Below are positions 8,212 through 21,796 of a stretch of 29,112 bases of DNA, piece after piece. Location of the stretch: positions 1 through 29,112 of IMG/VR virus record IMGVR_UViG_3300025326_001007, one strand, 5' to 3'. The DNA comes from a virus. A program made the translations under genes and the position numbers. The notes under the pieces were generated by a model. That model ran no database searches and was not told where the DNA came from. It was given only the letters and a program-made list of their open reading frames with translations. Each line of letters opens with the position of its first letter. Position 1 is the first letter of the stretch.

Positions 8212-8265
8212 CTACCTTCCTTTTCCGTTGCCTGGCAATACCATCTTCACGAGGGAGATCTCCAT
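8212..8265 (-). CDS. Possible 17-aa micro-ORF
   Basis: An ATG at 8265 overlaps the stop of the zinc-finger gene (ATGA) and opens 17 codons (MEISLVKMVLPGNGKGR). They end in TAG just before the next gene, whose ribosome site GGAAGG forms the last codons. Translation would couple the two flanking genes. It is too short to judge by composition; it may be only a coupling leader. Confidence 0.25.
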   Translation of the reverse strand: MEISLVKMVLPGNGKGR

Positions 8266-8960
8266 CAGGAATGCTCCTTTGTCTGGTGCAACCGCAACCC
8301 CTGCGGCGAATCGAAGAATCGCGTGCAGCCCTCGGTTCGGCAGTAATGGATGACTTCGGCCGCCGGCGGGGCAATTGCACCACCTGCCATCGCCTGCATC
8401 GCTTCCAACTGCTTGCGGGTCATCTCCTCCGCGCGCGCCTTCTCCTGCTTCTCGATCTCAGCCTCGATCGTCGCGTGCTCCTGCTTGTGCTTCCGGCGCA
8501 TGTGCATCCCCGCCTGGAAGTTGTTGGGAAGGTTGTCCACGCTGCATTCCTGACCCTCAAGGCCAATCTCGTTTAGCCAGGCCCGGTCTGGATGATCCGG
8601 GTGCAACCGGCAAAGCTGGCGATGGGCGGGCACGAGCTTCGGCATGTGTGTGACGGAATCGATGACGTACTCTTTGCCGGGCAACGGGGTACGCGTGAAC
8701 ACAAGTTGTCCCCGGCTATCGCGTTCGGTCAGCTTCTTCTTTGCCCTGTCAGGCGTGACATGAGAAGTCAACCCCGTCTGCCGGTGGTAGATCGTTACCC
8801 AAACAGATGTGCTCTTGCCCTTCATGCCCCGAATCAGGCCATCTTCCTCTCCGACCAGCTCGCCGGCGTCGAAGTTGTGAGTCTCCGAATGCTGACGGCG
8901 CATTTCCGAGATCGCTACGTCCAGGTCGATCTCGTCTTCAAAGGTTGCAGGTGATGTCAT
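8265..8960 (-). CDS. Protein with C-terminal C2H2 zinc finger (231 aa)
   Basis: I start at the ATG at 8960, which overlaps the upstream stop (ATGA). The frame stays open to 9056, but that part is inside the neighbour. Residues 1-30 are acidic. Residues 45-110 form a beta-rich domain (SVWVTIYHRQTGLTSHVTP). Residues 117-158 contain C117, C139, H153 and H158 in a finger-like arrangement with an overlong first loop. Residues 160-190 form a charged helix. Residues 207-230 are a classical finger, C207-x4-C212-x12-H225-x4-H230, with the hydrophobic core F-x5-L expected of C2H2 domains. Such fingers bind DNA, RNA or protein through zinc. A virion-operon protein with this finger could bind packaged DNA or a partner protein; the role is inference. 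Confidence 0.6.
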   Translation of the reverse strand: MTSPATFEDEIDLDVAISEMRRQHSETHNFDAGELVGEEDGLIRGMKGKSTSVWVTIYHRQTGLTSHVTPDRAKKKLTERDSRGQLVFTRTPLPGKEYVIDSVTHMPKLVPAHRQLCRLHPDHPDRAWLNEIGLEGQECSVDNLPNNFQAGMHMRRKHKQEHATIEAEIEKQEKARAEEMTRKQLEAMQAMAGGAIAPPAAEVIHYCRTEGCTRFFDSPQGLRLHQTKEHS

Positions 8961-9403
8961 GTCGTTGCCTTTCTGAGGAACAAATTTCGTTGCTTTGTGA
9001 ATCCCGGCCCGAAGGTGGATGCGTTCCGCCGCTGTTTCTGGCGCTCGTGCGCCCATGCCAGCGTGTCAGGGATAAGGGTGCTGGTCCGTTGATGCTCGAA
9101 TAGCATCTCGTGAAACAGTCGAGATCCGTTTCTCATGTCCTCTGCCTGGTCGATGAGCGCTTGCACCTCGTCTTGAAACAGGCTGAAGATGCGTAGCTCC
9201 GAGGAGTCCGGGAAATCGGATGCGGGCCCAAGATCGCGCACCCACTCCGCGATCTCGTCGTCGCGGAGCACGTAGATGAACTGCCAGCGGCGGAGGGACT
9301 TGTAATCACGGGTGAGGTGATTCGTCTCACGCAACTCCCACGCCTTTTCCCAGGGCTGCACGAACGTTGTCTGCGGGACCTTTTCCTCAGTTCGCGGCTT
9401 CAT
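8957..9403 (-). CDS. 148-aa hypothetical protein
   Basis: The ATG at 9403 overlaps the upstream stop (ATGA) and the end overlaps the zinc-finger gene. The protein is helical and charged, with Trp-rich positions near residues 18-45 (PWEKAWELRETNHLTRDYKS then LRRWQFIYVL) and an acidic middle (FSLFQDEVQALIDQAEDMRN). The tail is basic (RQKQRRNAS). No domain is recognised. Two successive overlapping helical genes between beta-rich virion genes resemble the position of tail-assembly chaperones, but no slippery sequence or shared N-terminus is visible to support that. Confidence 0.6.
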   Translation of the reverse strand: MKPRTEEKVPQTTFVQPWEKAWELRETNHLTRDYKSLRRWQFIYVLRDDEIAEWVRDLGPASDFPDSSELRIFSLFQDEVQALIDQAEDMRNGSRLFHEMLFEHQRTSTLIPDTLAWAHERQKQRRNASTFGPGFTKQRNLFLRKATT

Positions 9404-10765: not shown

Positions 10766-11428
10766 TTACTCGGCCGAAATGTCGGCCCAGAACCACGACG
10801 CCCCGCAATGGAACGCCGAGGCAGTGTTAACCGATGCCGTGACGGTGACGTGCAACGCCATCGTCGGCGGGACAATCAGTCTGCCGTCCACCTGGCCGAT
10901 ACAGGCACCGCCCGGCGTCGCCGCCGCAAGCCCGAAGTTCATCGTGCTTCCGGGGAAGGGCCGCCAGCCGTTGGCAACAACCGTCTGGTCGACGGCCGTC
11001 CGCGCCGGGCTCCCGGTTGCACTTGTAATCGAGGCGCGACCGTTCGCGCTGTACATCACGAGTGCGGTGTTCGCTGAGTACACAGGCGTTCCCACCTGCG
11101 CCCAGGGCGTGTGCGACCACACAACCGCTGTTCCGAGGAGCTGCCAGCTCCAGATGGTGTCGATGACCATGCACCGGGTGGCATGGTTGTTGTCGATCTC
11201 CAGCTTCGCAAGTGTCGTGGGCAACGCCACCACACCGGCAAAAGCGGTAGCCGTCGAGACTGACCAGCCTTCGCCGACGCGGGTCAGCTCCGCATACGGA
11301 GGCAACCCCTGAGCAACAAACAGCTCGTTGAGTTCGTTGCTCTCGATGCGAAATTCCTTGCCCTTGGACGCTCCACCACGGCGAACGCCGCGCTGGACAG
11401 TGTCGATCAATTCAAATGTTGCTGGCAT
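10766..11428 (-). CDS. Virion structural protein (220 aa)
   Basis: The ATG at 11428 overlaps the stop of the 264-aa gene (ATGA). Residues 1-45 are polar and helical (DTVQRGVRRGGASKGKEFRI, then NELNELFVAQGLPPYAELTR). The rest is beta-rich with many Trp/Val/Thr strands (WSWQLLGTAVVWSHTPWAQV, and GGACIGQVDGRLIVPPTMAL) and ends in ASWFWADISAE. This N-terminal turn followed by a sandwich resembles small phage capsid decoration or vertex proteins, which often lie within a few genes of the capsid gene. I do not recognise the exact family. Confidence 0.65.
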   Translation of the reverse strand: MPATFELIDTVQRGVRRGGASKGKEFRIESNELNELFVAQGLPPYAELTRVGEGWSVSTATAFAGVVALPTTLAKLEIDNNHATRCMVIDTIWSWQLLGTAVVWSHTPWAQVGTPVYSANTALVMYSANGRASITSATGSPARTAVDQTVVANGWRPFPGSTMNFGLAAATPGGACIGQVDGRLIVPPTMALHVTVTASVNTASAFHCGASWFWADISAE

Positions 11429-12222
11429 CAGAACGTCTCGTCTCTGCCGCCCTCGGCGCCAAAGTAATCCACTTCCCAGGTCGGGTCCGTCGTTGACGGG
11501 TCAACGAGAATCACAACCGGGTGATAGAGTGCCGCGGTGTCAAGGTTGCCGGCGGCGAGGGTCGCCACCAGCTTCGGCCCGGTGTTCTGCGGCGTCGTGG
11601 AAATGTCGCCGTAGTAGACGCGTCCCGCACCATCGGGATCAATCTCGACCCGGATATACATAAACGAGTCGGCCACCGGGACAGCGTTGGCCCGAATACC
11701 AAGCGTGCCCAGGGTCGTGACCGAACCGGTTGACGTGGTAACTGCGGCCGTCGTCAGCTCCGTGCCGTCGAGCGACGCATGGACGCGCCAATCGTCGGTC
11801 GTGGCAGTGGTGTCGTAGTAGATGCCAAAGACATTGCCGCCGTCGTTGCTGGTAAGCGTCCCGCCCGAAAGCGTAAACGGATTCACGATCTCGGCCAGGT
11901 TGACAGTCTCCTGCCAGCCAACGAACGCGCCCCAGGTTGTCAGGACGCTCAACTTGAACCGAACCTCCATCGAGATCATCCCGTTCAGGGAGGGGCACAT
12001 AGGCATCGACGCCAGGCCGATGCCGTCAGCAGCTCCCGCCGCTCCCGAGAATGCCGCGATGCCGTTCGGTTCGTCCACCGTCGCCGACATCGCCACGTCG
12101 CCGCTGATGGCGATCAGGCGAATGTCATTGAAGCGGTACTGCGTCGCGTCCGACAGCGTCTGCACGATGGTAGACTGGAAGTCTTCGAAGAAGCCAATGT
12201 TTCCGTGACCAGTGCCTCGCAT
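11428..12222 (-). CDS. Lectin-fold-like virion protein (264 aa)
   Basis: An AAGGAGC ribosome site precedes the ATG at 12222. After an N-terminal segment (GHGNIGFFEDF) the sequence follows a concanavalin-like strand order: ISMEVRFKLSVLTTWGAFVG, FGIYYDTTATTDDWRVHASL, FMYIRVEIDPDGAGRVYYGD, and ALYHPVVILVDP. Pairs such as M-E-V-R-F, F-G-I-Y-Y-D and Y-I-R-V-E-I-D-x-D-G-x-x-x-Y-Y match the laminin-G or ConA-type domains of phage surface proteins. It is the first gene after the major capsid protein, which suggests a capsid-associated protein. Ligand and site are not known. Confidence 0.65.
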   Translation of the reverse strand: MRGTGHGNIGFFEDFQSTIVQTLSDATQYRFNDIRLIAISGDVAMSATVDEPNGIAAFSGAAGAADGIGLASMPMCPSLNGMISMEVRFKLSVLTTWGAFVGWQETVNLAEIVNPFTLSGGTLTSNDGGNVFGIYYDTTATTDDWRVHASLDGTELTTAAVTTSTGSVTTLGTLGIRANAVPVADSFMYIRVEIDPDGAGRVYYGDISTTPQNTGPKLVATLAAGNLDTAALYHPVVILVDPSTTDPTWEVDYFGAEGGRDETF

Positions 12223-12237: not shown

Positions 12238-13110
12238 TTACGTCGTCGGCGCGGTGGTATTCGAGTACACTTCGTAGAGCCAGTTTCCTGGACTACGTTC
12301 CCCGAACACCCACTCGTCGTAGTGAAAAACGTCGGTCGCGCCGCCGCCCTTTTCAGGGAGGAACTTTTCATAGTTCCATGGCGAACGCCCTTGAACGAAC
12401 ACGGCCGCTTCCCGTGAGTGAACGCCGCCCTTCGAGTCCGTGGACCCATCGATGGCGATGTTCCCGTCTTCAAAGAGATTTGTGCCAGCAACTCCGCCCA
12501 TGAAGCCCTTGCGGAAAATCTCTTCGGTCATGCCGTTCGGGATCGTGTACGTGCCGATACCGGCCAGTACCTCATCCCAGATATCTCTCACCTGGAAGGG
12601 GTGCAGGACGGTGAACAGATCTCCGGTAGAGGGCTCGGTTGTGTTGCCCTTGATCCGTGACGCAGCCGCCCCGATGACGCCAGACACAAGCGTGGTGCCA
12701 GTGCCCGAAAGCGAAGTTGTGGCACCGTCGAGCCATGACAGATACGACTCATCCTTGAGCCGCGTGATCGCGTTCTGTGAAAGCACGCCCATCTTGGCCG
12801 CCACCTTCTTGTCGATGCGGATCTTGGCGCGGTTGGTGATCCGCGTCTGAATTCCGCCGACAACAGGAGTGAGTTGCAAGAGCGTGTCGGACAGTTGCTG
12901 GGGGTTATTGAGATCCTGATCCTCACCGATATTGTTCATGCCAGTGAGTTGGGCCAGGGAAATCTCGTCCCAGGTCGTGCCGGTGCCTTCCGGAAGTTTC
13001 TGGTGATCGGTTGCCCGCATAAACACTCCGTCGTGTTCGCGGACAATCCGAGCCGCATCAATCATCGTGGGAAGGCTATCGGCAAGGGACCCGGTTGTGG
13101 TCGTTGGCAT
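12238..13110 (-). CDS. Major capsid protein (290 aa)
   Basis: It follows the scaffold-like gene, with a GGAGACCCCC ribosome region before the ATG at 13110. The sequence has HK97-type features. There is an N-terminal polar arm (SLADSLPTMIDAARIVREHD), then a long helix region (RAKIRIDKKVAAKMGVLSQN). A beta-hairpin or P-domain-like middle follows (GDLFTVLHPFQVRDIWDEVL), and the A-domain part ends with EKFLPEKGGGATDVFHYDEW. It would build the icosahedral shell around the DNA. The assignment rests on order (portal, scaffold, capsid) and on overall resemblance to MCPs of environmental phages. I see no protease domain nearby, so maturation by cleavage is not indicated. Confidence 0.75.
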   Translation of the reverse strand: MPTTTTGSLADSLPTMIDAARIVREHDGVFMRATDHQKLPEGTGTTWDEISLAQLTGMNNIGEDQDLNNPQQLSDTLLQLTPVVGGIQTRITNRAKIRIDKKVAAKMGVLSQNAITRLKDESYLSWLDGATTSLSGTGTTLVSGVIGAAASRIKGNTTEPSTGDLFTVLHPFQVRDIWDEVLAGIGTYTIPNGMTEEIFRKGFMGGVAGTNLFEDGNIAIDGSTDSKGGVHSREAAVFVQGRSPWNYEKFLPEKGGGATDVFHYDEWVFGERSPGNWLYEVYSNTTAPTT

Positions 13111-14446: not shown

Positions 14447-14635
14447 TCATGCCCTTCCCTCGATTCTGCCATCGCAGCGGATGCATAGGCCGGTGTAGGG
14501 CGTGCCGGAAGGAACATTTATACTTTGACGCCGCCCGCACCAGCAGCATCTTACCGCGACGAGCCGGAGCGTGAGTGTGGCCCGCGCCCCCGTCGTCACC
14601 TGGTCCTTCTGTGGAAGGGCGAGCCGCGTCATCAT
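14447..14635 (-). CDS. 62-aa zinc-ribbon-like protein
   Basis: The ATG at 14635 overlaps the stop of the 1542-aa gene (ATGA). The protein carries two CxxC knuckles, C30-x2-C33 (within RCCWCGR) and C51-x2-C54 (LCIRCDG), 17 residues apart. That is the usual layout of a small zinc ribbon. The N-terminal 28 residues are polar. Zinc ribbons of this size bind nucleic acid or act as structural partners. The gene overlaps one copy of the hairpin repeat (14604-14619). Confidence 0.55.
   Translation of the reverse strand: MMTRLALPQKDQVTTGARATLTLRLVAVRCCWCGRRQSINVPSGTPYTGLCIRCDGRIEGRA
14604..14619. repeat. Dispersed hairpin repeat, copy in zinc-ribbon gene
   Basis: TCCTTC-TGTG-GAAGGG: a five-base-pair perfect stem with one further G-T pair. 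It lies in the N-terminal coding part of the 62-aa gene. Confidence 0.55.
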
Positions 14636-17600
14636 TTCTGCCCCGCCAGCCAGTTAAGGATGTCCTTGTCCGAGGTCACGTCGTAGCCCCACTGAAGCGC
14701 CTTCTTCGCGAGCTGAGGATTGTTCGCGATCCACGGGTCGCGGGAAGTCTTCCGATACCAGTCATTGAAGCCCTGCACCGGCTTGTACGACTCGATGCCA
14801 TTGCGAAGTTGGGCAAGGACCGCCGGGTCAGTGTTGCCAGCGGCGGCCTTTTTCACCATGGAATCAACCCACTCGTAGTAGTCCATGCCGGGCGTGGGCG
14901 CCACGTAAGCCTTGGCCAGCCAACCATTCTTCACGGCCTGAGCGAAAGCGTTGTCCTTCAAATCGAAGTAACCACTGTCTGCGATGGTCTTCACGTCGGC
15001 CCGGTAGCGCTTCACCGTCTCCGTGCCGCTCTGCTTCAGCCCAAGTAGTCTATCAAGTTCGGCCTGCTTCTCTTGTGGCTGCGAGGCCAGCCATGCGTCA
15101 ACCTTGTCCCAATCGACATCCACTCCGTTTGGAGCCACATTCTTGCGGATCTCGGCATAATAGGCGTCTGCGATGTCCTCAATCTTCTGCGGTGGCTGAT
15201 TGTGGTAAACCGCGTCGAGCGCCCCCTTGATCATGTCCTGTCGCCTATGGAGGTTGTCCCTCCAGCGGTCGGGCTTCAGCGTCCTCGCAGCTAGCGCCGA
15301 GTCGTCTTCTATCTGCCCCCTCTCGACCTCATCCTTAATCTCTGTCACTACAAGAAGGCGGGCGGCCTTATCCGACCGCTGCGCTGATTCTTCCAGCCCC
15401 TGTCGTTCCAGCTTCTGCCTCTCGGCATCCTGCCCAACCCACTGATTGACAAGCGCCTTCCCATCATCCGTCTTCACGTCCGCCCAGTAGTCTCGCCCGG
15501 TCTGTTCCTTGTACTGGCGCGCGAGTTGATCGGAGGGGCCTTCCTTATACGTCTGAAAACCCGCGAACTCCAGTCCTGAACGAACAACGTCGAAACCCTC
15601 ATTCTTGATCTGAGAAGCAATCGGTGGGATTGGTAGCGTATTCCAAACGCGCTCGGCGGCACCCATCCCCTTCCCATAATCGCCCAGGCGCCAGCCGCGT
15701 TGCGGATCGTATCCGAGTCCAGCAGCAGCTTCAAAGATCCTGAATGGCGGAGAAGAACTGGAAAGCGCCAGCTTCAGCCAGGCCTCTCCCACCCCCTCGA
15801 CATCTCCCTCTGATAGCGCACGGAAGCTCCGCACTACAGCCTTGGCGACAGCAAGCTGGGGGAACACCTGCATCGTCATCCCCGGCAGTTTCATCATGCC
15901 GAACCCCGGCTTCGATGGATCAAGCTCTATCTCTCCACCGAAGTAGTCAGTGACGAGTTTCCCAGTCGCCAGCGTACTTGCTCCCCATGATGCTATCGCA
16001 GTCGCTGCAAGCATTCGTTCTGTAGGAGAAGATGCTGGGCTTACCAGCTTCCCAACCTGAAGAATTTGAGCAATTCTGGCACGCAGCATTGGCGGCGAGA
16101 GAATGGCCGCTTTTTCCGCTGCCGCGCGCTGAGCCTTAAGAGCAGGCTTCCAATAGCTAGTGTTGCTGTCCGCAAACATCGCCGCTGCATAGCGCACCTT
16201 CGGGTCCATCACATCTTGCCCAACCATCTTTGCCAGGACCAGGTTCCCTTCATGGTTCAGGTTGCGAATGCTTCCAAGCACCTTCCCAAACTGGAAGTTT
16301 GTCAGGGCACGGACAAATGGCACAATCGCCTTCTCATCAAGTGTCATACCCGCTCTACCAAAATGACGGAGGAGCGTTCCCTCACGACTCACGTCCGTGA
16401 TGCCCGTCATAACGCCTTGAGGAACGCCATCGATTGCAAAAGCAATTCGGCGAGGTAGCCCTTCTGGGACTGTCTGAATACCAGCATGAGCAAGGTTCAG
16501 CATCCGATTAACCATCCCAGCAATGATGTTTGGCCCACCGCCCTGTGCCGCATGGAGAACCTGCTGCCCAAACACAGCCATATCCCCGATGCCAAACTGC
16601 ATGTTCTTCCATTCCTGAGAGACGCTGGCCGTACCAGAGATGATGTTATCAGGGCCAAACGGGTGCAACTTTGTCTCATCAACGAACTGCCGCATATTGG
16701 CCGGAACCCCCTGCCGATATCGCAGCTTTAATTCTCGTTCGAGTAGCACGTCCGCCAACTTTCTGGCATCGTCCACTGACATTGATCCAGTATATTCCAA
16801 CGCCCGGATCAGGTCGTTACGAGAGTGAAGAATCGTAGCGAGGTAAGAATCCGCCGGGTCGCCTGCCATTTGAAGCAATCGCTTGTCGATATAATTGGTA
16901 TCGCCCTTCAAACGCGTCAACCCTTCCTGTTGAGTTGTCCAGTGCTCCACTGCTTTCTTCAGGATGACCCGCTGACCCTCATCCTCCACCGCATCATCAA
17001 TGAGCTTGTACGCTGTCGCGTTCACCCGGCTCACCGACTGCGACAGTTCTTTAGGGATGTCACCCCGCGCACCCAGCACCTGGCCAGGACTCGGCGGCGC
17101 CATCGCTTTCTCCGCCACCCTACCAGCCTGAGACTGCAAACGCTCTGCGCGAGCCGTAAGTTGCCCTTGTCCAATAGCACGCATCTCGTCCGATGTGCGA
17201 ACCATGTTATTCAGCTCATCAAGGGCAGCTTGATCAAGCTCGTTCTGAGCGGCAATGGTTTTCCATTTGGCCGCTTGTGCTGCCCGATCCGCCACTTCCT
17301 GGTTACGTGCGGCAGCGTTCGTCGCCTTCTGTAACGTTTGCTGCTCCTCGCGCTTCGCCACTACTGCTTTCTTCTCTGCCCAGCGGGTCGCCTCACGAAC
17401 CTCCAATCGATTGACTTCCGAATCGGCCTGAACTGCCCGCCGCTGGGCCTCCTCTGCCGCCTTCTTCCAGGCAGGCGTTGTTGGATGGAGCTTTGCCTGA
17501 TCATCAAGCTGACTGGCCAACTCGCGTTGTCGCTGCCCGATCAACTCCTGCTTGCGGATCAATGAATCAGCTTCGCCGCGAGCAGCTTTGATCCTGGCAA

Positions 17601-19260
17601 TGTCCGCCAAATCCTCCGGCAAAAGCCGCGCCATCCCGGTAGGGAGCTTAACGTTCTGCCGTTCCAGCAGATCCCCAACCTTCGGCCCAAAAGTCTTCCG
17701 AGCCCACTCCAATTCATTTGGCTGAAGACGGCGGCCATCGATGATTTTTTCCAGCGCGCTATCAGCTCCCGCAACACGGTAATTCTCGAACCATGGGAGC
17801 TTCCCCTGATTGATGTCTGTGAGAACACGGCCAACCACTGCATTCTTCTCGACATCAGTAAAGGCCACGCCAGGCAACACTTCCCGCTGGAAAGAGCCAA
17901 CCGCTGATGCTTGTCTGGCTGCCCCGGCTATCTCTTCTGGCGACTGTTCAAGGTTCAAACCCTTCTCAATCCGCCGCAGCGTCGCGCCTGCCTGTGCCGC
18001 ACGGCCCGCAATGTTTTCTGCCTCGGCAGTCCCGGAAAGGCGATACTTTTGTTGTGCCCTAAGTGAATCCTCGATCTTCACGACAGCGGCATCGAAAGGA
18101 TCAGTGCTCTTTGCCGCGACTTTTGGTTTGCTCCTGACCACCCCCCCCGCCTCACCACGCCGGACAATCTGCCCTCCCATCATCTCAACAGGTTCAGCTT
18201 CCCATACCCTCGCCTTCGCCAGCCCCTTCGCCCCAGCCCTGCCGATTTCCGGGCCGTACCAACCCCCAACGCCACCAGCAAGGCCTCCACCAAGCTGCCC
18301 TACCCACTCCGGCGCTCCCACCTGCTCCGCAACCGCACCACCTGCCTCAGCACCATAAGTCGCCCCCAGCGCCGCCAATCCGGTACGCCCCAACCCCTTC
18401 GCCACGCCACCCGCGAAGGTACCCCCCACCGGGATCGTCGCGATCCCCAACGGACTCGTCAACCCACCTATCACATCACGCGCCGGGAAATACCAGGGAT
18501 TCGGAGCCTTGCTCAGCAAGTCTTTCGGAATCAGCGATTGCATTGCCCACGCAAACGGATCAGGCGTTGTCCCACCGAAGCCACGGTTGTACTCGCGTTG
18601 CAACGTCGAAGCCGGGACCTGCATCTCAACTTCGCGTTGGCGCTCGATCGGTAATTCTCCCCAGGGCGTCATTCGCGGAGCCGACCCCGCTGGCAACCCC
18701 GTGTTCAGCGCCGCCCCCGGCCCGGCCCTGAACGGCGCTTCCGGCTCCGGCTTCCACATGTCGAGGATGTTTTGGTACGTCGGGTCCGTGACGCCCTGAA
18801 TGTCGAACGCCTTGCGGACGCCCTGCCCCATGTAGGGCGCGGGCTGCTGAAGCCAGTCTTGTTCCCGATAAGGCAGCCTGGTTTCGGCCAACGGCTCGGC
18901 TGCCCGAAATCGATCTTCCCAGTCACGTTCTGCCTGCGCGTACTCCGCCCCATAAGTAGCGTCAACCCCCGGCAACAATCCCCGAGGAATCTTCTCGTAA
19001 TACTCCCCGGTAGGATCAACAACGCCCTCTTCCGGAACAGGCGTGTACTTGCTCACGTCGTAGGCAGGTTGCCAGTCTGTGGGCCCGGCGGGAGTGGCGC
19101 CGTAACCCCAGTCCTTGTTAGGCCCCCAGAGCCGCCTGGAAACGGTGTCGTACCAGTCGTTCTTTCCTTCATCCCAAATCACGTTGGGATTGTTCGGGTC
19201 GCGGATCGGCTGGCGTGGGGTTTCTAGGCCCGTATACTCGTCAGTGGTGAGAAGTACCAT
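14632..19260 (-). CDS. Giant putative internal (injected) virion protein, 1542 aa
   Basis: This is the largest gene. Residues 1-230 are aromatic and Pro-rich (YTGLETPRQP, EGKNDWYDTV). Residues about 260-345 are Gly/Ala-rich and weakly hydrophobic (GGLTSPLGIATIPVGGTFAG, then AGGAVAEQVG). Residues about 540-720 are long charged helices (QRQRELASQLDDQAKL and onwards). Residues 780-1200 are helical with another mobile hydrophobic stretch near 1092 (ATAIASWGASTLATGKLV). The C-terminal 300 residues are charged helices, including one (ELDRLLGLKQSGTETVKRYR) near 1410. Long, mostly helical proteins encoded between portal and capsid genes are typical of internal core or ejection proteins of podoviruses, which travel with the DNA through the cell envelope. 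No lysozyme, protease or polymerase motif is visible. Confidence 0.6.
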   Translation of the reverse strand: MVLLTTDEYTGLETPRQPIRDPNNPNVIWDEGKNDWYDTVSRRLWGPNKDWGYGATPAGPTDWQPAYDVSKYTPVPEEGVVDPTGEYYEKIPRGLLPGVDATYGAEYAQAERDWEDRFRAAEPLAETRLPYREQDWLQQPAPYMGQGVRKAFDIQGVTDPTYQNILDMWKPEPEAPFRAGPGAALNTGLPAGSAPRMTPWGELPIERQREVEMQVPASTLQREYNRGFGGTTPDPFAWAMQSLIPKDLLSKAPNPWYFPARDVIGGLTSPLGIATIPVGGTFAGGVAKGLGRTGLAALGATYGAEAGGAVAEQVGAPEWVGQLGGGLAGGVGGWYGPEIGRAGAKGLAKARVWEAEPVEMMGGQIVRRGEAGGVVRSKPKVAAKSTDPFDAAVVKIEDSLRAQQKYRLSGTAEAENIAGRAAQAGATLRRIEKGLNLEQSPEEIAGAARQASAVGSFQREVLPGVAFTDVEKNAVVGRVLTDINQGKLPWFENYRVAGADSALEKIIDGRRLQPNELEWARKTFGPKVGDLLERQNVKLPTGMARLLPEDLADIARIKAARGEADSLIRKQELIGQRQRELASQLDDQAKLHPTTPAWKKAAEEAQRRAVQADSEVNRLEVREATRWAEKKAVVAKREEQQTLQKATNAAARNQEVADRAAQAAKWKTIAAQNELDQAALDELNNMVRTSDEMRAIGQGQLTARAERLQSQAGRVAEKAMAPPSPGQVLGARGDIPKELSQSVSRVNATAYKLIDDAVEDEGQRVILKKAVEHWTTQQEGLTRLKGDTNYIDKRLLQMAGDPADSYLATILHSRNDLIRALEYTGSMSVDDARKLADVLLERELKLRYRQGVPANMRQFVDETKLHPFGPDNIISGTASVSQEWKNMQFGIGDMAVFGQQVLHAAQGGGPNIIAGMVNRMLNLAHAGIQTVPEGLPRRIAFAIDGVPQGVMTGITDVSREGTLLRHFGRAGMTLDEKAIVPFVRALTNFQFGKVLGSIRNLNHEGNLVLAKMVGQDVMDPKVRYAAAMFADSNTSYWKPALKAQRAAAEKAAILSPPMLRARIAQILQVGKLVSPASSPTERMLAATAIASWGASTLATGKLVTDYFGGEIELDPSKPGFGMMKLPGMTMQVFPQLAVAKAVVRSFRALSEGDVEGVGEAWLKLALSSSSPPFRIFEAAAGLGYDPQRGWRLGDYGKGMGAAERVWNTLPIPPIASQIKNEGFDVVRSGLEFAGFQTYKEGPSDQLARQYKEQTGRDYWADVKTDDGKALVNQWVGQDAERQKLERQGLEESAQRSDKAARLLVVTEIKDEVERGQIEDDSALAARTLKPDRWRDNLHRRQDMIKGALDAVYHNQPPQKIEDIADAYYAEIRKNVAPNGVDVDWDKVDAWLASQPQEKQAELDRLLGLKQSGTETVKRYRADVKTIADSGYFDLKDNAFAQAVKNGWLAKAYVAPTPGMDYYEWVDSMVKKAAAGNTDPAVLAQLRNGIESYKPVQGFNDWYRKTSRDPWIANNPQLAKKALQWGYDVTSDKDILNWLAGQK

Positions 19261-19273
19261 TTTACGATCTCAC

Positions 19274-21796
19274 TCAATACCCGACCTTAACGCTGCTCTT
19301 CGACGCCTGCGGCAACCTCCACATCAACTCCTCCTGAAGCTGATCCTCTACCGGCACCCCATACTTCGTCTGGACGCCCTGGAAATAGAGCTTCTTCAGC
19401 GAGTCCAGCAACGACGAAAAGCCGATGTGCCGCGTGTTAAGTTGCGGGTACTGGACGTTCTCCCGAAGGTTACGAATCTCGTCCATGATCGACTCCAGTC
19501 CCGCCGGGACCGGTGCCTGGTATGGATTCGCAGGGATCGACTCGATGCCGGGCAGGAAGCCCGGCTGCGTGGCTGGAGGCGCAGAATGAAGACCACCTTC
19601 TGACTTCACAACCGGCGCAGGGGGGCCTAACGGGTTGTTTGGATCGACACCCCCTGGGCCGCCCTCCCACATAATTGGAAGCGAAGTGGCCGTCACCGGG
19701 GGCGGAGAGGTAACCGTTGGAGACACTACAGGAGAAGCGGGGATAGCCCCCGGTGACGGTGTGGGTTGCAGAGCCGGCACAGCCAATGACGGCGGCGGTG
19801 GCGCTGCCGTCGCTGGTGGGGCGCTCACTGTGGAAGGGGATACAGGAGCGCTCGCCACCGGCTGTTGCGCTGGGGCAGCATCGTTCGTGATCGGCTGCGT
19901 TGTGTACGTCGTTGGCGCCGGTACTGGCGCGGGAGCCGGAGCCTGGTAAGAACCCGCGAGATTGCCGTAGTAAGAGGTCAGGTTCATCGGATCGCCAAAG
20001 TAAGCCGCGATGCTGGCGTAGGGGTCAGAACCAATGTATGTCCCCCCTGCAAACCCCTTCACCCCCGTCATCCTGCGACGATCCATCATCCGCTCCGTCT
20101 GCCCGTGCGGGACTACCCCGATCGGCGCCCCCGTCGGGTTGACGTACATCTCCCGCCCGCGTTCATCCCCCAGGAACATCTGAGCCCGCGTCATCCCGCC
20201 CCTTGCCATCTTCTTGACGTATTGCCCTGTTACAGGATCGATCGTGTACTCGCCACCCATGGCTTCTTCGAACGTTGTGGCTAACGGCTTCGTGGCACTC
20301 TCGGGCGTCGGTATCGTCCCTCCCGGATTCGGCCCCTCGGCATATACCTTCGGCTTCTGCGACGCATACCACGGAGCCAGCGTCTCCGGGTCAACCATGC
20401 CCTCTACACCACCCGGCTGTGTACTGGCCCAGGCAAGCTGGCTGTCTGACAGACCACCAGGCGAAGGAATCGCCGGCGCAAGACTTGTATCGGCCCACTT
20501 CACCACGGAAGGTTGACGCCTCGCCCCTCCAGCATCGGCAGTCGCCACCGGCGATACCGCTCCGGCAGCGGCTCCTAACTCGTTGCCCGCCACCGGCGGG
20601 GGAATATCCGTCCCACTCGCCACGGGCCCAGCTCCACCTCCCGGGGCAGGCATCCCTGTTCCGCCCCCACTACTACCCATGCCTCGCTGCAACGCTAGCG
20701 TCAGCGCCGCCGGCAACATGGCGTTGCTCGACAGGGCCGTAGCCCCACCCCTCAGCGCGTTGATGATGTTCCCGCCACCCGCCGCGTAGAATGCAGGCAA
20801 CGCCGCCGGGTCGTAGCTGCCAATCACGTCGGCAAGCTGCTTCGCCGCCGAGAGGCCCAGACTGGTTTTCGACAGCCCCAGCTCCTCCGTTGTCTTCCAG
20901 AGCTGGAACGCCCGGTCGAGGTCATTCTGCCCCCCCTGAAATCCTTGCTGAGCAAGCAAGCGTTGCATCGCCGCCGCATCGCCCGCCGCCGCCTCGCCAG
21001 CGTAGTCGCGCGCTGGCCCGGAGTAACCGCCACCACCACCGCCGCCGCCGCCGCCGCCGCTACTCGGCGTGCTGGGCTTTGGCCCCCAAAGAAGATCCCA
21101 TTTCCCAGTCTTCGGGTTGAACTGGTAGGTGTTGCCGGTGGCATCCTGGCGGGTTGTGGGGGTGTCAACTTCGCCTCCCCCAGTGTAAAGCGAGCCGTCC
21201 GGATTGACGGGTCTCCCGTCAGCCAGAACATACCCCGTTGGGCTCTTGCTCGACGGGATGGCGTAGATCGAGATGCCTTGCGCGGTAATACCGCTACCGG
21301 GATAAGACTCGCCCCCTGTCGTCCCTTTCCCCTTGAAAACCAGCACCTTCTCTTTCGTCAACTCGTTGTAGTCGTACACGTCACCCGTTGCCGGGTCGGT
21401 AATCCGAGACCACGCCGACGTGGAACCTGGATTCAGGGATACAGAAACGCCCGCTTGCGACGGGGCCTGTGGATTACCAATGTATGTCCCCGGCTGGCCA
21501 TTATCGTCCAGGTAGTAAGTGCCATAGCCCTGCGGACCGTTACCCGTCCACATCTTAGCTGTAGCCGCCGGCATCTCCCACTGCTCGGTAACAAAGTTGA
21601 AAACAGCACCAGGAGTGCTGGAGTTAACTCCCCCACCGCTACCGCCACCACCACCGCCACCAGGACTTGCCGGCGCACCGTACGGCGACATGTCTGCGTT
21701 GTACCAGGAACCACCACCATCCGGGCTGTAATGCCCCACCCCGTCCGCAATCCACCCTCGACGGACCAGTTCTTGCCATTCTTGTGGACTAGGCAT
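19274..21796 (-). CDS. Low-complexity virion protein (840 aa)
   Basis: The ribosome site GGAAGGAAGAG precedes the ATG at 21796. The N-terminal 45 residues form a small WQELVRRGW-type domain. Gly-rich linkers follow at residues about 45-56, and an 11-Gly run at 247-257. Between them lie short Tyr/Asp/Gly repeats (DPATGDVYDYNELTKEKVLV; QDATGNTYQFNPKTGKWDLL). Around residues 530-575 a motif FLGDERGREMYVNPTGAPIG, then VVPHGQTERMM, resembles the 'GERGPE-x-x-x-PTG-x-x-V-x-P' element of tape-measure and internal phage proteins. Residues 610-720 are Pro/Ala/Thr-rich, and a helical C-terminus ends it. It is probably partly disordered and packed inside or at the tail of the particle together with the 1542-aa protein. 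Confidence 0.6.
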   Translation of the reverse strand: MPSPQEWQELVRRGWIADGVGHYSPDGGGSWYNADMSPYGAPASPGGGGGGGSGGGVNSSTPGAVFNFVTEQWEMPAATAKMWTGNGPQGYGTYYLDDNGQPGTYIGNPQAPSQAGVSVSLNPGSTSAWSRITDPATGDVYDYNELTKEKVLVFKGKGTTGGESYPGSGITAQGISIYAIPSSKSPTGYVLADGRPVNPDGSLYTGGGEVDTPTTRQDATGNTYQFNPKTGKWDLLWGPKPSTPSSGGGGGGGGGGGYSGPARDYAGEAAAGDAAAMQRLLAQQGFQGGQNDLDRAFQLWKTTEELGLSKTSLGLSAAKQLADVIGSYDPAALPAFYAAGGGNIINALRGGATALSSNAMLPAALTLALQRGMGSSGGGTGMPAPGGGAGPVASGTDIPPPVAGNELGAAAGAVSPVATADAGGARRQPSVVKWADTSLAPAIPSPGGLSDSQLAWASTQPGGVEGMVDPETLAPWYASQKPKVYAEGPNPGGTIPTPESATKPLATTFEEAMGGEYTIDPVTGQYVKKMARGGMTRAQMFLGDERGREMYVNPTGAPIGVVPHGQTERMMDRRRMTGVKGFAGGTYIGSDPYASIAAYFGDPMNLTSYYGNLAGSYQAPAPAPVPAPTTYTTQPITNDAAPAQQPVASAPVSPSTVSAPPATAAPPPPSLAVPALQPTPSPGAIPASPVVSPTVTSPPPVTATSLPIMWEGGPGGVDPNNPLGPPAPVVKSEGGLHSAPPATQPGFLPGIESIPANPYQAPVPAGLESIMDEIRNLRENVQYPQLNTRHIGFSSLLDSLKKLYFQGVQTKYGVPVEDQLQEELMWRLPQASKSSVKVGY
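21026..21058. repeat. GGN trinucleotide tract coding 11 glycines
   Basis: Eleven consecutive Gly codons (mostly GGC, some GGT) in the 840-aa protein form a simple repeat that can change length by slippage without shifting frame. A second shorter Gly tract lies near its N-terminus. Confidence 0.85.

Follow-up and report, generated by a model that had tools for sequence, protein, structure and literature searches.

The window analysed here, a 29,112-nucleotide stretch of viral DNA, encodes a 231-amino-acid protein, P0002, that ends in a eukaryote-type C2H2 fold, as confirmed by structure prediction, with predicted zinc binding. P0002 belongs to a family of phage proteins that is undescribed, although the finger fold itself is known, and the role that we favor for it, with moderate confidence, is that of an assembly factor or a minor head protein encoded in the head operon.

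The C2H2 zinc finger is a small fold typical of animals and plants. The prokaryotic representation of PF00096 is scarce, amounting to 59 proteins with a genomic distribution of 0.03 in a published survey (PMC7017128). Within the capsid-linked phage family described here, C2H2 fingers recur in 24 members, with variants in loop length and, in a sister lineage, a CxC form, so that the family makes the origin and use of such fingers outside eukaryotes testable. The family also brings to light a conserved pair of head-operon proteins that was missed by profile libraries, in a capsid clade represented by more than 300 contigs in IMG/VR. Neither the family nor its core nor its capsid linkage yielded anything beyond weak matches in Pfam or PHROGs, and we found no description of the family in the open-access literature.

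The C-terminal finger and the architecture of P0002

The gene and the parts of its product are located as follows.

8265 to 8960, minus strand: zinc-finger protein gene P0002, 231 aa (open reading frame; ATG at 8960, stop at 8265-8267)
8271 to 8342, minus strand: C-terminal classical C2H2 finger, C207 to H230 (motif, AlphaFold2, Foldseek)
8382 to 8486, minus strand: long helix, residues 159-193, running from the core to the finger linker (AlphaFold2, pLDDT ~97)
8487 to 8612, minus strand: conserved core site, C117, H120, C139, H153 and H158 (invariance; AlphaFold2, pLDDT 93-97)
8628 to 8810, minus strand: N-terminal domain, beta hairpin and helix, residues 51-111 (AlphaFold2, conserved alignment columns)

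The original prediction placed a finger with the spacing C207-x4-C212-x12-H225-x4-H230 at the C terminus of P0002, and the ORF translation bears this out. The segment conforms to the ligand pattern C-x2-4-C-x12-H-x3-5-H and is the sole match to it among the six-frame ORFs of the window. The core residues expected for such a finger are present in part, namely, F216 (C212+4) and L222 (H225-3), but the aromatic residue that is usual two positions ahead of the first Cys in classical C2H2 fingers is missing (this position is H205, with Y206 at -1).

A structural model was obtained with AlphaFold2 from a 49-row alignment consisting of 48 homologues and the window protein, with a mean pLDDT of 77.5, compared with 48.5 for the single sequence; the single-sequence model, in which the C terminus was all-helical (pLDDT ~48), was replaced by the alignment-based one. 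The core and the long helix are modeled with pLDDT 93-98, and the N-terminal domain with strands at 55-59 and 65-68 and a helix at 70-77 (pLDDT 81-91 over residues 51-90). In the tail, the model contains the beta-beta-alpha unit that the original prediction had asked for, with strands 205-206 and 215-216 and helix 219-229 (pLDDT of the block 84-94). Over ~28 residues, this unit superposes on fingers of KLF5, PRDM9, and GLI1 in the PDB at 0.6-0.8 A in Foldseek searches, specifically, KLF5 (2ebt) with a probability of 0.82, 0.8 A and 36% identity, PRDM9 (4ijd) with 0.7 A, and GLI1 (7t91) with 0.6 A and 42% identity. The E-values of these matches exceed 1, as expected because the match spans only ~28 residues. 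The interpretation of the tail as a classical C2H2 finger is thus supported by both the predicted fold and the matches to eukaryotic fingers in the PDB. When the whole model was compared with VIA-align, nothing scored above Z 3.3, and the only significant structural match was BFVD entry A0A1B1IR16, an unnamed viral protein of 198 aa (E 1.6e-7, 23% identity), which is probably a member of the same family.

Could the motif have arisen by chance, or be a decaying one without function? The 33-residue end of P0002 scores 15.9 bits against Pfam zf-C2H2 (PF00096), under the cut-off of 25.2, and some family members have no finger at all, as such a reading would have it. Nevertheless, shuffled P0002 tails yield the motif in only 0.05% of trials, and the motif class was observed 10 times in related tails against 0.0075 expected by shuffling. 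Given these shuffles, the recurrence in related tails, and the sole match in the window, we conclude that the motif is not a chance one. Furthermore, the finger is found in 24 members, and silent changes exceed replacements per site in finger-bearing pairs, with pS 0.46 and pN 0.00 for L037/L045 and pS 0.53 and pN 0.06 for L072/L053. The notion of a chance or decaying motif is therefore largely refuted and, in our estimate, highly improbable. The end of P0002 also matches GLI fingers at E 0.011, and that of the homologue L062 reaches 28.1 bits against the same Pfam profile, above the cut-off.

The finger is similar to PF00096 fingers of the TFIIIA/Krueppel/GLI type in ligand order, spacing, the F/L core and the predicted beta-beta-alpha fold, but differs in standing alone, on a protein from the head operon of a phage, and in the absence of the aromatic residue. 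With the Ros/MucR proteins, P0002 shares the Cys2His2 ligands and the prokaryotic setting. The Ros87 domain, however, comprises ~60 residues, with three strands, two helices, and a 15-residue core (PMC9569694), whereas the P0002 finger is modeled as a minimal unit of two short strands and one helix. The Ros/MucR profile gave no match to P0002. The Cys-to-His spacing is the classical one, as the original prediction held.

The zinc-finger family and its conserved core

No homologue of P0002 was returned by Pfam and PHROG scans with the whole protein, by tblastn against phages and plasmids, or by the initial scans of viral sequences and genomes. Two true relatives emerged from a scan with a degenerate DNA motif covering HPD..C..HM (another hit, L007, was a chance match), and the alignment of these two led to 15 loci. 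A capsid-guided scan, from which the best 80 of 333 relatives were taken, provided 78 new loci, and a final alignment scan returned 33 loci, 23 of these with new ids, a few of which duplicate contigs already represented among the earlier loci. One alignment, which served as a search query only, omitted 14 residues that form an insert in the window protein. Altogether, pattern, alignment, and capsid-guided scans identified 68 distinct family members, all on phage contigs, the closest of which is ~33% identical to P0002. Scans of genome contigs detected no family member; sister contigs encode DnaB and a family A DNA polymerase, which makes bacterial hosts likely. The gene is present in a single copy in each of the ten longer records searched, and the placement of the window protein in the trees is uncertain owing to its long branch.

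The second Cys2-His2 set of the original prediction (C117, C139, H153, H158) is indeed present, with the overlong first loop described for it; its secondary rank does not hold, given that all of the family shares it as a conserved core. A fifth core residue, H120, is likewise invariant. In the 49-row alignment, the invariant positions are C117, L119, H120, G133, C139, H153, and H158, and the five candidate ligands (C117, H120, C139, H153, and H158) are retained in every complete family member. From C139 onward, the core resembles a C2H2 finger in its second half. Its first Cys lies 20-22 residues ahead of C139 and has an invariant His behind it (C-x2-H). Judging from the alignment, the family signature is a putative metal-site core of the form C-x2-H...C...H-x4-H, more conserved than the C-terminal finger. 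P0002 combines all the features by which we define the family: this core, a P0005-type gene directly upstream, and a capsid gene of the respective clade farther upstream.

A local resemblance of the form LHxD...GL..C...N, together with weak PHROG matches in at most two members (endonuclease VII, E 0.0098; HNH endonuclease, E 0.066), raises the question of whether these proteins are HNH or endonuclease VII-type nucleases acting on branched DNA during packaging. We deem this very improbable: the invariant catalytic residues of HNH/endonuclease VII were not found in the family, the would-be catalytic residues vary (position 122 is D in 52 of 60 proteins, and the Asn that follows the second Cys is variable), and P0002 itself has no match.

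The tails are more diverse than the core. Among the 68 members, 12 carry a classical C2H2 finger (x12), 12 a long-loop C2H2 finger, 17 a CxC...H...H arrangement, and 27 none. The four finger ligands are accordingly not retained by every homologue, with C2H2 found in only 24 of the 68. The refuting condition of the original prediction, ligand loss in close homologues, does not strictly apply to relatives of which the nearest is ~33% identical. The CxC tails (for example, CGCG-x10-H-x5-H with a KKH end) presumably resemble U1-/matrin-type and jaz fingers with their long His-His gap, from which they differ in having CxC in place of C-x2-C; the CxC-tail relatives L021 and L118 have no Pfam match.

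Linkage to the major capsid protein gene

The genes that accompany P0002 in the window are the following.

8957 to 9403, minus strand: partner gene P0005, 148 aa, with a 4-base ATGA overlap with the zinc-finger gene
11428 to 12222, minus strand: P0010, 264 aa, conserved, located after the capsid gene, with homologues in 85 loci
12238 to 13110, minus strand: major capsid protein, matching the Pelagibacter phage and DSL-LC06 major capsid proteins

P0010 is a probable decoration-type protein. The capsid protein of the window shows 37-54% identity to those of the sister loci and ~25-30% identity to those of the Pelagibacter phage and DSL-LC06, and is a distant relative of the major capsid proteins of Pelagibacter phages HTVC111P/HTVC112P and phage DSL-LC06; the zinc-finger gene is absent from HTVC112P and DSL-LC06.

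The zinc-finger gene is located 2-5 kb past the major capsid gene, directly after the P0005-type partner. This partner is directly upstream in all 68 members; its stop codon overlaps the start codon of the zinc-finger gene by 4 bases in 33 of them and by 1 base in 13. Loci selected by the capsid gene contained the zinc-finger gene in 59 of 78 new cases (from the best 80 of 333 relatives), and the 19 others all end within 1.61 kb past the capsid gene. Conversely, the capsid gene was found upstream in all 15 and all 23 loci retrieved through the zinc-finger protein. In the family loci, many of which are short contigs, few reaching far upstream, no homologues were detected of the portal protein, the terminases, and the large proteins that the window encodes, with the exception of one weak terminase match and one scaffold match. 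Because these proteins are not common to the family loci, the zinc-finger protein appears to be tied to the capsid, and the capsid, P0010, P0005, and zinc-finger genes are apparently passed on together. The constant association with the capsid gene upholds the prediction that the gene is coupled to structural genes rather than to regulators.

Structural operons also hold genes of other functions. P0002 could, in principle, be a DNA-binding regulator of late genes that resides in a structural operon by happenstance, similar to the Ogr/Delta activators, which contain zinc and occur in P2-type phages, given that C2H2 fingers mostly bind nucleic acid, that a finger exchanged as described below might be a specificity module of a regulator, and that the Ogr_Delta family, listed in PMC7017128, provides a precedent for late activation by zinc proteins of phages. 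This seems unlikely to us, given that the gene is always linked to the capsid gene and P0005 even though the portal and terminase genes are different, and that there is one finger only, with no array. There is also no match to Ogr_Delta or helix-turn-helix domains in Pfam, the Ogr_Delta profile being absent up to E 10 for P0002 and up to E 0.1 for ten homologues.

Several other features of these loci were observed. In the window, P0007 and P0008 (9909-10875) are adjacent tandem paralogues, both with ...WRWD..NSRLDFYYRGTRVGHIN...; their homologues occur in 51 loci, and one matches phrog_18251 (function unknown). Two large proteins encoded between the portal and scaffold genes (14632-19260, 1542 aa, and 19274-21796, 840 aa) have no Pfam or PHROG match, and proteins of 833-2266 aa without detectable similarity occupy the same place in sister loci. 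Probable homing endonucleases were noticed by eye amid the capsid-cassette genes, LAGLIDADG-like at L070:11754-12176 and HNH-like at L055:8875-9402. The 68,370-base record G003 (L104:5214-17649, L044) seemingly contains two head operons and one zinc-finger copy, the second operon comprising a capsid-like and scaffold-like pair and large-protein, portal-like, and terminase-like ORFs; this record is possibly a joined assembly. The 12.7-kb contig L002 (IMGVR_UViG_3300025319_000864) encodes a terminase and a portal 100% identical to those of the window and is too short to reach the zinc-finger gene.

Finger exchange and the proposed role of the family

Comparison of the phages L062 and L056 indicates that the finger has been exchanged between phages: the two are >99% identical upstream of the zinc-finger gene (18 differences in 2530 bases), and yet the finger and tail differ at 43 of 99 bases (43%). 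The rest of the zinc-finger gene differs at 95 of 549 bases (17%), the final 420 bases ahead of it at 10%, and the downstream region at 38 of 844. The exchanged piece is thus larger than the finger and probably spans P0005 and the zinc-finger gene. The pair L120/L124 presents the reverse pattern, in that the finger is identical while the core has diverged (pS 0.83). Two kinds of finger, RAL..TH and GL.LH, are scattered over the core tree, and the GLRLH finger of the window, by its sequence, appears to be of the GL.LH kind. The exchange between near-identical phages suggests that the finger sets a binding specificity. Fingers of the GLRLH kind would have Gly at position 3 of the helix, unusual for base reading, which makes a protein target as likely as DNA.

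The favored role, as a factor in assembly or as a minor protein of the head, can be outlined as follows. The core would bind one structural zinc that holds the N-terminal domain and the long helix in shape, and the zinc-finger protein would work together with P0005 at the capsid. The long helix and the linker could present the C-terminal finger, which might bind either nucleic acid or a protein partner that varies, while the head is assembled or the genome packaged. The putative properties of P0002 thus include the binding of zinc and of nucleic acid and a location in the virion. The finger appears to be dispensable for the basic role, given its absence from 27 of the 68 members.

Alternatively, P0002 might be a virion protein that is delivered with the DNA, its finger engaging a host factor or masking the incoming genome. 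The position in a structural operon fits such a role, as does a variable, exchanged finger, which is reminiscent of parts under diversifying selection. We consider this quite unlikely, because the finger is missing in 27 of the 68 members. A more general proposal, which we advance tentatively and regard as rather doubtful, is that a phage head protein employs its exchangeable eukaryote-type C2H2 finger as a specificity module, be it in capsid assembly, in genome packaging, or on a delivered protein. If so, near-identical phages would differ mainly in the target of the finger.

Apart from the finger, L113 and L114, otherwise near-identical, diverge strongly in the genes between P0010 and P0005, ~1.7 to 0.4 kb ahead of the zinc-finger gene; this stretch is a second exchange hot spot adjoining the capsid gene.
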